Part shown: positions 10,698-16,292 of the stretch, in pieces
Layout of the letters: each line of letters starts with the position of its first letter
How positions within the stretch are numbered: the first letter of the stretch is position 1
NCBI RefSeq assembly: GCF_007004735.1
Contig: NZ_SSNL01000005.1
Span: 496,001 to 560,000 of the forward strand
DNA from: Salinigranum halophilum
Lineage (GTDB): Archaea > Halobacteriota > Halobacteria > Halobacteriales > Haloferacaceae
Direction: 5' to 3'
DNA: 64,000 bases
Position numbers and translations under genes: made by a program
The notes under the pieces: generated by a model
Database searches by the model: none
Told to the model about the DNA's origin: nothing
What the model saw: the letters and a program-made list of their open reading frames with translations, nothing else

Positions 10698-11075
10698 AAG
10701 CGAACGGCGTCAGCCGTGACGCGCGGCGAGGCGTCAACGACGCCGAATCAGACACGGCACGGACACTCGCAGCCAGCAGACAGCGAACGCTCACACAGAC
10801 AAGGGTGAGGCTGAACGTGCCAGGCACTCGGGAGCCGAGACGATTCGAGGTGTCTTAACCAACAACTCTCGACTGTTGGTTAACACGGGGTCGGCGGTCG
10901 AGTATGTCCGAGACTCCCGCCGCCGATGGCATTGGAGATGAACAGGGGTGGGACTGAACGGGGCCAGACGCTCGGCGTCTCCGCGAGCGAAGCGAGCGGA
11001 TGGCTCGGTCGACGAGCGGAGCGAGTCGGTCGGTGAAGGCGGGCGACGCACGGACCGCAGCCGGAGGCGAGGACC

Positions 11076-11137
11076 GTGGTTCGAGAGAGCAAACCTCTCT
11101 CGTCATCACGAAAGAGCGCACGGCGCTCTTTCGAACG
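11076..11137. repeat. Two-hairpin palindromic element, copy A
   Basis: The first stem is CGAGAGAG (11082-11089) with CTCTCTCG (11095-11102). The second is CGAAAGAGCGC (11109-11119) with its exact complement at 11123-11133, giving an 11-bp stem and 3-nt loop. The segment GTGGTTCGAGAGA, the spacer TCTCTCGTCA and the following CACG are shared with the element at 16149-16225, although the stem bases differ. Confidence 0.65.
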
Positions 11138-11307
11138 ACAGCGAATCCCCCGAGTCGAGCGCCCGGGGGCGTTCGAGGTCACCAGACGAGATCGAGGCCG
11201 TCGAATCCCTCACCCCAAATGGGACTGTCGCGAGACCAAGCATACCAGTTGACCACTGACGTCCACACGGAAGGCCACTCGAAACCCGCCTTCCGAAAAT
11301 CAATTTC

Positions 11308-11409
11308 GATAACTACTCGCCACCAACCCGGCAATCGAGAGACAAATCCGACGAATATCAGACTCTCGTCTCTCGATTTACTCCGTTTGCCGGTATCTCG
11401 ATAGTTATC
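11308..11409. repeat. Nested imperfect palindrome upstream of the 125-aa gene
   Basis: The outer arms are GATAACTA (11308-11315) and TAGTTATC (11402-11409). Middle arms are CCGGCAA (11328-11334) and TTGCCGG (11387-11393). Inner arms are AATCGAGAGAC (11333-11343) and GTCTCTCGATT (11368-11378). The whole is 102 bp, like a small non-autonomous element, and ends 26 bp before the next gene's ATG. Confidence 0.55.
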
Positions 11410-11435
11410 ATATCGTACAATGACCGAGACAACCA

Positions 11436-11813
11436 ATGTCACGAGCCGTGACCAAGGGGCTCCCGGCACGACCACTCACGTTCGCGGAGATGGGAACCTA
11501 CGAAGGAGAGAACACAGAGGTACTGCTCACACCGTTTTGGGCGTGGACCGGAGACGGCGAGGACGACGATACCATCGTCATCGCGGTCGTCTGCACACTC
11601 CCCGACCGGATGAGCCTCCTCGGGTTCGACCCGGCGACCGAGACCTGGAACGCAGTCATCCATCAGACCGATTTTACGGACATCGCCGCAGTGCCGGGCA
11701 ACCTCAACCTGCTCGAACAGTGGTTGTTCGAGCGCTATCCACTCGACGAGCTGGTGGCGATCAACACCGAGCCGCTGGACTTTCTCTCGAAGACGAGTGG
11801 TCTCGGAGCCTGA
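11436..11813 (+). CDS. Hypothetical protein, 125 aa
   Basis: I do not recognise the family. The frame has haloarchaeal coding character: acidic, with conserved-looking phrases such as LLTPFWAWTGDGEDDDT and LLEQWLFERYPLDEL, no signal peptide and no membrane segment. The start is uncertain; ATG 11436 is the first in frame after the upstream palindrome, and a second Met lies at residue 19. It precedes the large HerA-type ATPase gene on the same strand by about 180 bp and may belong to the same module. Confidence 0.6.
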   Translation: MSRAVTKGLPARPLTFAEMGTYEGENTEVLLTPFWAWTGDGEDDDTIVIAVVCTLPDRMSLLGFDPATETWNAVIHQTDFTDIAAVPGNLNLLEQWLFERYPLDELVAINTEPLDFLSKTSGLGA

Positions 11814-11996
11814 TCGAGAACGCACAGCCACGGCGTGGCCACAGGCCACAGAGAACAGCAGTGCCACGAGGAGACGAACAGGGACACGACACGGCCACTC
11901 GGGACGGGAGTCGAACGGGTGGAGTGGACGCGAAACGAGACGGCACGGGATGAGACGATGCACAGTCTCGTCTCGAAGACTCCACACACGGTCAGC

Positions 11997-14900
11997 ATGG
12001 CAACGAAAGACGACACAGACCGGAACGGACGCATCGATGACGAACCGACAGCGCTCGGGCCTGACATCGAGCCCAGCGGAGACGAACCGCCACACGGAGA
12101 ACTCACAGTAACCGACTTCACTGCTGAGAGCACACAGAACACCAGTTCGTCCCCGCTCTCGAACGCACCGACACCACGGCCATATATCGAGATTCGGCCC
12201 TCGTCGAGTGGGCTCTCGGCGCGGGCGGTCGTCGCGTCGATGCAGAAGCTGTACGTCACACTAGAGTCGCTGACCGAAGACGCGGGACTCCTCCAGCGCC
12301 TTGGTCTCCGATCACGCGCGCCACCACCGACAGTCGAGTGGGTGTTCGTCGGTGATGGCCGCGCGGATACGAGTATCCGCTGGCTCGTCGGCGTCACGGG
12401 CACGCCGGCTGCGGAGGCCCACAGGCAAGACGAACGAGACGAAAAAGAGGCGAGCGAATCGAGCCGCGGGAGACACAAGACGGCAGCGGGGCGTGACCGC
12501 GAAGCGGCTGAAGACGCGGCCGTCACCCACCGTCTCCATCGCATCGAACGCGTCCTCCGGCAGACGCTCCCGAGTACGTACGAGTTGCGACGAGTGCAAT
12601 GGCACCCAGAATACCTAACAGAGCACCTGCCCGCACCCGTCGTGTCACCGCCGCCGTCGAATCCACACGAGCGTGTCGGGCCACACCACCCCGCCATCAC
12701 GGTCGACTCACCGTACGTTGCGGGTGTCGAATATCGGGGGCGAGCCACGCACACGAAAGACTGGCAACTCCCACTGACGCGATTCGGCGACCCCCTCGAG
12801 TCATCACCGTCAGCATCGGCCGTGACCTCGCCTTCGGCTTCGACAGGCGCGCCGCGTCGCACTCGTGACCAACAGCAGGGGCAGGTCGGGAGTGAGACAC
12901 AGCAGTGCACGCTGTCGGGTGTGATCGAGACGATCCGCGATGCAGAGACGCCAGTCATCTATCAGGTCGTGTGTCGACCGATCGAGCCGTGGACACGCGA
13001 GGCTGACGCGTACCGCTGGGAACTCGAGAACGGTGAGCCGACACTCGCGAGTAAGGCCTTCGAGTTGTTGTTCCCCCGCTCGCCCGAGGACCGAGAGGCG
13101 TTCGAACCGTCTCCGTCGTCACAGGCGCGGCTGGACGCGCTCGAAACGCGCAACACCCACCAGTCGTTTGGCGTCTGTGTCCGTGCCGTTGCCCTCACGC
13201 GCGACACGCCGGTCGCTGCGGACAGCGTCGCACGGCAGTTGGCGACGGAACTCGAGACGGTCGGGAGTACACACCATCGCATCGAGGGAGCCGTCCGGAC
13301 GGATGACGACCTCCACACAGAACGAGAGCCGCCGGGCAGTCAGCTCTTCACCGACCTCGTCGAGCGGAGGTGGCACGCCCCCACGTACGGGGACCGACCA
13401 CTCAAAAACGGGTTCAGACGACAGCCGAGTCGTGGGCTCGTCGTCACGCCTGCGGAGTTGCCCAGCCTGTGTCTGGTCGATGGAGCGAGACTCACACCGA
13501 ACGGCCAGCGGGCACTCTCACTTCGGCACGGCGAGCGGACGGGGCTCGTCTTACCCCCACCGGGCGTCTTAGCGCAGTATACCGAGCCGGGGCAGACGCT
13601 CTGTCAGCCACTGACGCACGACCGTCGACCCTACCTCCGGCCGTTCGTGAACCCGGTCGCTCTCCAGGACAAACATCTCGTCATCGCCGGGACGACCGGG
13701 TCGGGGAAGTCCGTCACCATACAGACGGGGCAACTGAGTAACGTTGTGGCGACTGCAGGCCCGGAGATCATCTTCGACCACAAGAGTGGGCAGACGAGTG
13801 TGGAGTTCATGCAGTCGTACTACGCAGCGTATGGAACGCTCGAGGACGTCATCTACTTCGACCTCTCGCAGGTGCTGCCGGCGCTGTCGTTTTTCGATAT
13901 CCGGCCGCTCCTCAACGCGGGCGTTCCCCGCCAGGAGGCGGTCGAACGGACGGTCGGGCACTACGAGGAGATTCTCAGGACGCTCTGGGGGGCCGACCAG
14001 TACGACGCGAAGGAGGCACCGAAGGCGATTCGCATGCACGCGAGGGCGCTGTTCGATCCCGTCCACGGGTCGGACGCCTTCAGCAACGACGACTTGCGAG
14101 AGGCGCTGAGCCGGACGCTGTCAGAACAGATTACGCCGCCGGTCTCCAACGAGAAGTACGAGCGGTATTTCAGGGAGTTCTTACAGCGACGACACGAGGT
14201 GTTCGGGGCAGCGATGGGCGGTGCGATCAGTCGAGTCGAGAAGATCGACACCAGTAGCCGACTCGCGCCACTGTTCGATCACGTTCACCGCCAAGACCCA
14301 GGTCACGCTGACGACGACAACGACAATGACAACGACAACGACAACGACGACGCGTCGGTAACCCATCCCGCGTTCAGCTTCGCCGATATTGTCGACGAGG
14401 ACGTCACGGTGGTCTTCGACTTCGGTGGGATGGAAACAGAGATCAAGGCGGCGCTGACGCTCGTTCTCCTCTCAGACCTGTGGACGGCGCTCGAGTCTCG
14501 AGCGACCGGAGCGAAGCGGCCGGAGTCGTCGGAAGCGTCACACTCGCAGGTGAACCTCTATCTCGAGGAGGCGGGCTCGGTCGCCAACTCGCCGATCGTC
14601 GATACCCTGCTCTCACAGGGGCGGTCGTTCGGCCTGTCGGTCATGCTGGGCGTGCAGTATCTGGGACAGCTTCGCTCGCAAGACGACGATGATGACACCT
14701 ACTACGAGACGCTGAACGAGACGGCGACGTTCATCGTGGGGAACGTCGCGGTCGATGACGATATTACGAACGTCCTCGCGACGGCTGACATGCCGCCACA
14801 GGCGGTGGCCCGTCGACTGGCTGCGATGCGTCGCGGTGAGTGGCTCGTCCGCCCGGGCGCGCTCTTCGGGGAGGAGACACCACGCCCGTTTCTCGCAGAG

Positions 14901-16145
14901 TCACTTCCGGCTCCCACGGGACACCCAGCCAGCGATGAGCCGCTTGCGGAGGATTCAGCGAAGAAGCTCCGATTCGATGTCGCGCTCGTCCGTGCGGAAG
15001 AACGGACCCGTCGGCGCTACGGGTATGCCCATCGCGACCCTGATGTGACGGCGAACGCCAACGCAGGGACGGGGACGAACGATTCGACGGCTGGCACACA
15101 GCCGACTGCGGGCGGAGCGGACAGTGACGATGCGACCAGCGCCGACGAGCCGAATCCAGATCCCGCTGTCGAGGCCGCACAGAACGGCTCGCTCTTGCCA
15201 CACACGAAGCGGTTCCCTACGTTTCTCAGCTACGATGAGCCACGCCGGGCGATTCAGTGTGTCGAGTGTGGGACCCGCTACAATCCCTCGGAGGCTGGCA
15301 TCCGTGATGCCATCGAGTGTTGTCACGCGTTCGAGGAGGTCGACCGCGACGACATCCCCACACTCACCGCCCACCTGAAGCTCGCACCCGCCGAGATTCG
15401 TGGCTCGCCGTGGTCGCCAGGGCAACTCCGGTTCATCCAGACGGTCTGGAACGCCCAGCAGGGCACCTATAGCGACCTGGAGTACGATATCACACGCGAC
15501 AGCATGGTTCGCCTCCGTGAGTACGTCGGGGTGGCGGTCGACGAGGTTGAGGCGCTCGTCGACGCAGACCTGATCCGCGAGGATACCACGCTCCCGCATC
15601 TCCTCTACAGCGTGACCGCTGCCGGCCGCGACGCCGTCGGCGAGCATTATCGCGAAGGGGTGGATTACGGCCCCGGCCGGGGTGACTTGGGTGAGTCGAG
15701 CGAACACATCATGATGGTCGAGCTCGCGACGTGGCTTGCCGAACAGCGCTGTGCCGATCCGGAACACGACGCGGCGACTGTCTCGCCGTATCATCAACTC
15801 GATGATGGCCGCCGCCTTGACGTGGCGTGTCTGGATGCCGAGGGAGAGATCGTCGTCGCCATCGAAGCCGAGCGGATCAACAACGACGCGCCGACCGCAG
15901 CCCCGACCGATTTCGATAAGATGGCCGACTGTGGCGCAGCTGAGGCCATCTGGGTCGTCTCGGGGCTGAGCGCTGCCTCGAAGCTCACGGAGGCCCTACA
16001 CGACCCGGCCGATGGCGAGCCGCGAATCGACCGGACCTACAGCCCGACCAGTCAAACACAGAAGTACCGGATCGACGAACCCGGTTTTACCGACATTCAC
16101 ACCGTTAGAGGCCTCATCAAGCGTCGTGAACAGGACGCCGAGTGA
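11997..16145 (+). CDS. HerA/FtsK/VirB4-type ATPase with C-terminal nuclease-like domain
   Basis: A 1382-aa protein. An N-terminal region of about 550 residues of unknown fold is followed by a P-loop ATPase: Walker A GTTGSGKS (about 565-572), a Walker B-like strand VNLYLEEAG (about 852-860), and an SQGRSFGLSVMLGVQYLGQ segment typical of HerA/VirB4/TraG motors. About residue 1085 there is a CVECG-type zinc site, then a winged-helix-like part. The last 150 residues read like a PD-(D/E)XK fold: a Glu in VELATW, Asp in GRRLDV, Glu-x-Glu in VAIEAER, and a Lys further on. Proteins of this build occur on haloarchaeal plasmids and integrated elements and may move DNA in conjugation or act in defence. 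The frame is open upstream to 11835; I chose the ATG at 11997 because coding-like composition begins there. Confidence 0.8.
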   Translation: MATKDDTDRNGRIDDEPTALGPDIEPSGDEPPHGELTVTDFTAESTQNTSSSPLSNAPTPRPYIEIRPSSSGLSARAVVASMQKLYVTLESLTEDAGLLQRLGLRSRAPPPTVEWVFVGDGRADTSIRWLVGVTGTPAAEAHRQDERDEKEASESSRGRHKTAAGRDREAAEDAAVTHRLHRIERVLRQTLPSTYELRRVQWHPEYLTEHLPAPVVSPPPSNPHERVGPHHPAITVDSPYVAGVEYRGRATHTKDWQLPLTRFGDPLESSPSASAVTSPSASTGAPRRTRDQQQGQVGSETQQCTLSGVIETIRDAETPVIYQVVCRPIEPWTREADAYRWELENGEPTLASKAFELLFPRSPEDREAFEPSPSSQARLDALETRNTHQSFGVCVRAVALTRDTPVAADSVARQLATELETVGSTHHRIEGAVRTDDDLHTEREPPGSQLFTDLVERRWHAPTYGDRPLKNGFRRQPSRGLVVTPAELPSLCLVDGARLTPNGQRALSLRHGERTGLVLPPPGVLAQYTEPGQTLCQPLTHDRRPYLRPFVNPVALQDKHLVIAGTTGSGKSVTIQTGQLSNVVATAGPEIIFDHKSGQTSVEFMQSYYAAYGTLEDVIYFDLSQVLPALSFFDIRPLLNAGVPRQEAVERTVGHYEEILRTLWGADQYDAKEAPKAIRMHARALFDPVHGSDAFSNDDLREALSRTLSEQITPPVSNEKYERYFREFLQRRHEVFGAAMGGAISRVEKIDTSSRLAPLFDHVHRQDPGHADDDNDNDNDNDNDDASVTHPAFSFADIVDEDVTVVFDFGGMETEIKAALTLVLLSDLWTALESRATGAKRPESSEASHSQVNLYLEEAGSVANSPIVDTLLSQGRSFGLSVMLGVQYLGQLRSQDDDDDTYYETLNETATFIVGNVAVDDDITNVLATADMPPQAVARRLAAMRRGEWLVRPGALFGEETPRPFLAESLPAPTGHPASDEPLAEDSAKKLRFDVALVRAEERTRRRYGYAHRDPDVTANANAGTGTNDSTAGTQPTAGGADSDDATSADEPNPDPAVEAAQNGSLLPHTKRFPTFLSYDEPRRAIQCVECGTRYNPSEAGIRDAIECCHAFEEVDRDDIPTLTAHLKLAPAEIRGSPWSPGQLRFIQTVWNAQQGTYSDLEYDITRDSMVRLREYVGVAVDEVEALVDADLIREDTTLPHLLYSVTAAGRDAVGEHYREGVDYGPGRGDLGESSEHIMMVELATWLAEQRCADPEHDAATVSPYHQLDDGRRLDVACLDAEGEIVVAIEAERINNDAPTAAPTDFDKMADCGAAEAIWVVSGLSAASKLTEALHDPADGEPRIDRTYSPTSQTQKYRIDEPGFTDIHTVRGLIKRREQDAE
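14310..14352 (+). repeat. Asp/Asn-coding hexanucleotide tandem repeat inside the ATPase gene
   Basis: Repeats of GACAAC (one GACAAT variant), flanked by GACGAC, encode an alternating Asp-Asn run between two ATPase segments. It is in frame and a multiple of three, so length changes would be tolerated. It is probably a flexible linker. Confidence 0.75.
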
Positions 16146-16148
16146 ACC

Positions 16149-16225
16149 GCCTCGGGGTCAAGTGGTTCGAGAGACTGCGTCTCTCGTCAGCACGGAAATC
16201 GAAGATTTCCGTACGACCCCGAGGC
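16149..16225. repeat. Two-hairpin palindromic element with closing stem, copy B
   Basis: An 11-bp outer stem (GCCTCGGGGTC at 16149-16159 with 16215-16225) encloses two perfect hairpins. These are CGAGAGAC/GTCTCTCG (16168-16175 with 16179-16186) and ACGGAAATC/GATTTCCGT (16192-16200 with 16204-16212). The 77-nt unit starts four bases after the ATPase stop codon, so it could end its transcript. Its spacers match copy A at 11076-11137. Confidence 0.75.
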
Positions 16226-16249
16226 ACTCGCCTTGTTTTCTCTGTAGAG

Positions 16250-16292
16250 TTTGACATCCTCCGCGCCCTGAAGGGCAGAGATTTCTCCTTGA
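16250..16292 (-). mobile_element. Solo IS200/IS605-type end
   Basis: The segment beginning TTTGACATCCTCC, followed by the small hairpin GCCCTGAAGGGC and then ATTTCTCC, has the layout of the ends found after tnpB genes of IS200/IS605 elements in haloarchaea. Read on the minus strand it is GGAGAAA, hairpin, GGAGGATGTCAAA, like the copy at 61619. No transposase gene adjoins it. Confidence 0.5.

Follow-up and report, generated by a model that had tools for sequence, protein, structure and literature searches.

The window, a stretch of 64,000 nucleotides from Salinigranum halophilum, holds two copies of a repeat of 54-66 bp that is composed of two perfect hairpins in inverted orientation within a conserved frame. 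The repeat inserts without target duplication, in almost every case between G and C. Very frequent targets are the palindromes of IS200/IS605-TnpB elements and of their short terminal-only remnants, called PATEs, and once inserted the repeat is carried further by the element that hosts it. Its hairpins vary as units, in both arms and with inverted loops, and passive copying leads to decay of the pairing. Transposition of the repeat itself is what these sequence comparisons suggest, and we consider it quite probable that all observations jointly reflect a transposase-less, two-hairpin mobile DNA element whose arms change at the DNA level and which is served by an enzyme acting in trans.

Copies in one genome and their hosts

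Copy 1 is an inserted element of 62 nt on the minus strand (11077-11138; TCGTTCG...CGAACCA), with hairpin arms at 11082-11089/11095-11102 and 11109-11119/11123-11133. Copy 2, also on the minus strand, has 54 nt (16163-16216; TCGTACG...CGAACCA), with arms at 16168-16175/16179-16186 (loop TGC on the plus strand) and 16193-16200/16204-16211 (loop GAA on the plus strand), and its target bases G and C lie at 16217 and 16162. When the flanking G and C are included, the units span 11076-11139 (64 nt) and 16162-16217 (56 nt), and both read G-TCGTNCG-hairpin-CGTGNTGACG-hairpin-CGAACCA-C on the minus strand; the family frame TCGTTCG-hairpin-CGTGATGACG-hairpin-CGAACCA fits both. An earlier note, made from the letters alone, had described two copies that share GTGGTTCGAGAGA, TCTCTCGTCA and CACG and whose stems differ in sequence yet pair perfectly. 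The motifs are in both copies where it had placed them, the pairing is as described, and the note erred only in ending copy 1 two bases early, at 11137, and in assigning an outer stem to copy 2. A three-block pattern, fitted to both copies and devised once the family was already known, matches the window twice (copies 1 and 2) and none of 100 dinucleotide shuffles of it. The fold of copy 2 beats 200 of 200 shuffles on both strands (z -5.8 and -7.8); that of copy 1 is weaker (plus strand z -3.0, equalled by 1 of 200 shuffles; minus strand z -3.6, equalled by 0 of 200).

The 11-bp outer stem that had been assigned to copy 2 (16149-16159/16215-16225) does exist, but as part of the host and not of the repeat. 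This host is a short IS200/IS605-type terminal-only element (16142-16248, minus strand, 53 nt without the insert) ending in TCTACAG on the left (16248-16242) and GGTTCAC on the right (16148-16142); its palindrome GCCTCGGGG/CCCCGAGGC is the outer stem in question, and the 54-nt repeat sits in its loop. The host of copy 2, as distinct from the repeat itself, shows the features of a PATE: an IS605-like near-terminal palindrome, a terminal oligonucleotide and no transposase. A related structure, GCCTCGGGG-CTTGA-CCCCGAGGC-GATTCAC, closes the 3' ends of tnpB genes of the same genome (L032, L035), and an insert-free 53-nt PATE (L072) reads TCTACAG...CCTCGGGG-CTTGA-CCCCGAGG...GGTTCAC. Among 12 PATE copies of genome G044, whose outer flanks are unrelated, nine carry the left end TCTACAG and the other three are one base off; half of the PATE matches in that genome (24/48) continue across the insertion junction. 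Adjoining the PATE, a remnant at 16250-16287 (minus strand) looks like a right end from a different IS605 type (GGAGGATGTCAA; cf. L034, L037, L038). A Toxin TumE family gene (PF20126; 16389-16694, plus strand) follows shortly downstream of copy 2, and a match on a Halobacterium hubeiense plasmid likewise falls under a DUF6516 gene.

Copy 2 had also been placed just after a stop codon. A TGA (16143-16145) does precede it, but this codon lies within the PATE end (GTGAACC), where a 1436-aa open reading frame terminates (11835-16145, plus strand). The frame has weak matches to type IV coupling-protein/FtsK-type ATPases, and its homologues are annotated as ATP-binding or DUF87 proteins; since a paralogue (L420) likewise stops at TGAACCG, we do not claim the PATE as the source of the stop codon. 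The position directly after a stop codon is what would favour a transcription terminator or mRNA-end hairpin, a function that the earlier note had entertained. Against it, TTTT within 20 nt on the 3' side, on either strand, was found at 1 of 376 sides compared with 43 of 1880 in the background, and some copies lie inside coding sequence; we regard this function as highly improbable.

Copy 1 lies in a hairpin-rich composite repeat (10947-11176, minus strand), which runs from GAACGCCCCCGGG on the left to GGCCCCGTTCAGTCCCACCC on the right and is entered at CTG^CGG. Insert-free copies of this host occur at L266 (same genome), L268-L277 (L268 belonging to Salinigranum marinum) and L280. The left flank joins the right flank directly at 13 of 18 composite loci displayed from 20 regions (reading ...CTCGCTG joined to CGGTCC... 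at L266 and L268), the other five being loci where the left flank was not found, some of which bear the element. The direct joins therefore define the insert of copy 1: 62 nt flanked by G and C, free of any target duplication. The composite repeat itself (GAAAGCCCCCG...CTCGCTGCG...TGCGGTGCTTACGTCG...GGCCCCTTTCAGTCCCACCC; window 10947-11176; L266-L277, L280) is common in haloarchaea, and a query of 251 bases, element included, had some match in 21 of 30 genomes. A TFB gene, a palindromic spacer, the composite repeat and a 1430-codon ATPase gene form a block present twice in the genome (9261-16145 and G000:C4:129000-135500, the latter being L420). L420 was considered as an exact empty site; its gene order (TFB, composite, ATPase) is the same, but the composite aligned poorly, and L420 was therefore not used as such.

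At the level of sequence, a third copy decides the question of mobility. It lies on contig C8 of the same genome within an intact tnpB of 444 codons, where 54 nt in frame add 18 residues between QSKL and REGRY; this copy sits at A^C and has a degenerate outer end. A plasmid search returned tnpB relatives with matches shorter by 54 nt. Of the seven closest relatives, six were compared: the tnpB of Salinigranum marinum carries the insert, and in all five insert-free relatives inspected (Halorussus aquaticus, Halobaculum magnesiiphilum, Halobacterium hubeiense [ISHhu1], Halorussus halophilus and Natronorubrum aibiense) exactly 54 nt are absent from this very position, and no bases are duplicated there. 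The 18-codon insertion in an intact TnpB is in effect a naturally occurring linker mutation in an RNA-guided nuclease. Elsewhere, tnpB frames enter the element and thereby acquire repeat-encoded C-terminal tails (L322, L351). The insert-free counterparts of the three host types (PATE, composite and tnpB) are all free of target duplication and support the "mobile palindrome" that the earlier note had listed among its options.

Distribution, target sites and the mobilising enzyme

The check proposed in the earlier note, a scan with a covariance model, was carried out with a model (R1) derived from 23 rows picked by hand, both window copies among them, so that the scores of these two are set by construction. 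R1 has matches in 45 of 60 relatives (E<=1e-4, both strands counted), and the further copies are changed on both arms; hence neither outcome that had been set against the proposal, no further copies or copies without compensatory changes, was observed. BLAST with copy 2 has matches in 39 of the 60 relatives, many of the weaker ones reaching just the host palindrome. In 84,980 species genomes, a pattern scan found at least 120 stretches, and among 80 listed all belong to Halobacteria, two of them to Haloquadratum; viral contigs and a phage collection scanned for the family gave nothing. G008, taken as H. walsbyi C23T, has the repeat at 11 places, whose flanks appear to be mutually alike and to resemble the 3' part of tnpB. 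Genome G042 has more than 20 composite-repeat matches and zero R1 matches.

The 165 distinct elements measure 51-66 nt, too short for a transposase gene, and are bounded by terminal inverted repeats, TCGTTCG facing CGAACCA (6/7) or CGAACGA (7/7). Among the 92 distinct elements of the first set, the preceding base is G in 89 (T in two, and one flank not visible) and the following base is C in 90; as the pattern used for the second set comprised the fixed frame together with the flanking G and C, the evidence for G^C comes from the first set only. Sorted by flank motif, 188 occurrences comprise 66 within PATE-type palindromes, 43 within composite-type repeats and 79 at other places; an outer helix of at least 6 bp surrounds 60 of the 66 PATE-type occurrences, and 16 of the 188 lie inside or within 200 bp of a tnpB match. 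Copies at L201 and L261 sit in other hairpins resembling tnpB 3' ends. A general rule of insertion at hairpin loops was considered and rejected: such loops account for 25% of 143 distinct targets versus 10% of 2857 random GC sites, but nearly all of them are PATEs (0 of 38 composite-type targets and 17% of 71 others), and a cut shifted by -1 also gives 27%.

An enzyme acting in trans would recognise the hairpin pair together with the ends TCGTTCG/CGAACCA, which resemble terminal inverted repeats. One candidate scenario is that of REP/BIME-like repeats moved by a Y1 HUH transposase of the IS200 TnpA or RAYT type. The paired inverted hairpins, the CCA tails and the insertion in palindromes are reminiscent of CGTC-type REPs as presented in excerpts of PMC3733652, and the hosts are themselves IS200/IS605 elements. 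We nevertheless hold this scenario to be improbable. Y1_Tnp was sought in the 60 genomes and no mobilising enzyme for the repeat was found: 16 of 45 carriers have no Y1_Tnp match, including G019 with its 44 R1 matches (both strands), whereas five of 15 non-carriers have one (Fisher p 0.07 over 60 genomes, p 1.0 over the 47 genomes of at least 90% completeness). The GTAG tag is absent at the hairpin foot, the feet being TCGT or TGGT. Furthermore, the repeat has inverted ends, unlike HUH elements, whose ends are directional. Reasoning alone led us to discard serine and tyrosine recombinases, as the junctions have no repeated core.

Variation of the hairpins

The 165 elements, seven of which could not be parsed for this count, provide 194 distinct hairpins with 1705 pair cells: 1649 Watson-Crick, 13 G-T, 21 A-C and 22 other. 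The wobble counts differ with set and parsing, the ratio of G-T to A-C being 3:10 (in a set without L180), 11:5 or 13:21. A C-G pair closes 159 of 162 three-base loops, and the C-GNA-G loop is unusually stable in DNA hairpins. Loop orientation is strand-symmetric, with 44 GNA versus 49 TNC, the same loop on opposite strands. In 52 aligned elements (55 elements of 54 nt minus two with a shifted 5' end and one reversed), 132 changed cells are both-sided versus four one-sided.

The pairing does not last in copies that merely accompany their host. Four clades copied with the host have 21 one-arm changes and none compensated in 560 cells: 17 in 176 cells in the G008 clade, with one further double change that is unpaired, and four in 384 cells in the G044 and G020 clades. 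Divergence in the G008 clade is alike in the stems (0.103) and in the rest of the element (0.091). From this and the single-arm decay we conclude that pairing is not visibly maintained in the stationary element. In PATE-hosted copies, pairing reaches 83% in the host stem (26 distinct stems) versus 98% in the inserted hairpins (51 elements), a comparison that includes two composite-type rows.

These counts bear on the proposal that the repeat is a structured RNA kept by selection for the fold, for instance a riboregulator or a segment of TnpB's omega RNA. In favour of it, the stems pair perfectly, their covariation exceeds that of all shuffles, and many copies, copy 2 among them, lie at the 3' end of TnpB-type elements, which is where omega RNAs terminate (excerpt of PMC12558985). 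However, one-sided intermediates are nearly absent (4 versus 132), G-T pairs are no commoner than A-C (13 versus 21), loops are strand-symmetric and pairing decays within clades, so that the selection for the fold put forward in the earlier note is not supported. In addition, sister tnpB elements manage without the insert. Rfam had no match in the window at gathering scores and, at E<=0.01, none in 11 tnpB loci apart from one tRNA. A structured RNA is therefore a distinctly unlikely explanation.

Loops are also found inverted. Orthologous tnpB copies in two Salinigranum species (L031/L427; flanks 93-94% identical) have identical stems with both loops inverted (GCA/TGC and GGA/TCC), and one end base differs too. 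These form one of three flank-matched pairs compared; the other two, of Halorubrum type as inferred from the listed name of one partner each (72-79% flank identity), each have one loop inverted and one hairpin replaced as a whole. An inversion from GCA to TGC is also present in the G020 clade. Over the family, reverse-complement loops on the same stem number 50 versus 23.8 expected, a value reached in 0 of 2000 shuffles; the pairwise count shows a weaker excess (53/284 versus 13%). Template switching is described in excerpts of PMC8604942 as homogenising arms and inverting spacers, and excerpts of PMC8794818 report template-switch mutations at inverted repeats. The double changes could thus stem from polymerase template switching between the arms or, alternatively, from the exchange of whole hairpins during mobilisation. 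Either fits the data better than compensatory point mutation for an RNA fold, and the data do not separate the two. Stem "words" common to many species could also mark old lineages and recombination. Caution is called for: changes on both sides of perfectly paired stems are usually taken to prove an RNA fold, yet in this family they look like DNA-level events.

A more far-reaching reading is possible, though we would not expect it to hold: a class-wide, transposase-free family with the hairpin pair as unit of inheritance, spreading at G^C by hairpin copying (single-strand or cruciform), occupying TnpB transposons as a niche, at times lengthening a working TnpB by 18 codons, and depending on an enzyme outside the usual classes. 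The copying process in this proposal is drawn from the joint rewriting of arms and the flipping of loops.

Relation to known repeats

Rickettsia palindromic elements offer a parallel to the tnpB copy, as they also place a palindrome in frame within an open reading frame. In-frame insertion of the present repeat is seen in tnpB only, and the likeness is one of position; RPE-4 and RPE-6 are named in excerpts of PMC3733652. From the same excerpts, GTAG and CGTC REPs and BIMEs resemble the repeat in being inverted pairs of small hairpins, some of them in palindromes, and CGTC-type REPs have no dedicated transposase and carry CCA tails at their ends. The present repeat differs by its lack of the GTAG tag, its other frame, its 3-nt loops and its presence in Halobacteria only among the matches listed. 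Template-switch mutations share the homogenised arms, double substitutions and spacer inversion (GAA to TTC in yeast), but in the portions of PMC8604942 and PMC8794818 considered here they are a mutation process of ordinary genes and not a mobile family.

In the open-licence literature, haloarchaeal small mobile repeats are described in PMC3119063, excerpts of which serve for the following comparisons. Terminal-only PATEs of 52 bp are known from Haloquadratum, close to the 53 nt of the terminal-only host of copy 2; PATEs have IS605-like termini and no inverted ends, the opposite of the inserted repeat (PMC3119063). The nearest counterpart is SMR-A of Haloquadratum walsbyi (HqIRS42, HqIRS43 and HqIRS55), which is transposase-free, has inverted ends and no identified mobiliser, duplicates no target and targets near-terminal palindromes of PATE/IS605 elements (PMC3119063). 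SMR-A measures about 110 bp (PMC3119063), whereas the present repeat, compared with it by description, has 54-66 bp and two interchangeable hairpins; its behaviour is SMR-A-like, but we do not class it as SMR-A. A four-hairpin form at L073 (G016, ~1425-1555), which looks like one element lodged in another's linker, may bridge to the size of SMR-A. Haloarchaeal small mobile repeats hence gain a minimal and class-wide relative, one whose frame is defined, whose site is exact and which has insert-free counterparts; this makes the search for the enzyme concrete.
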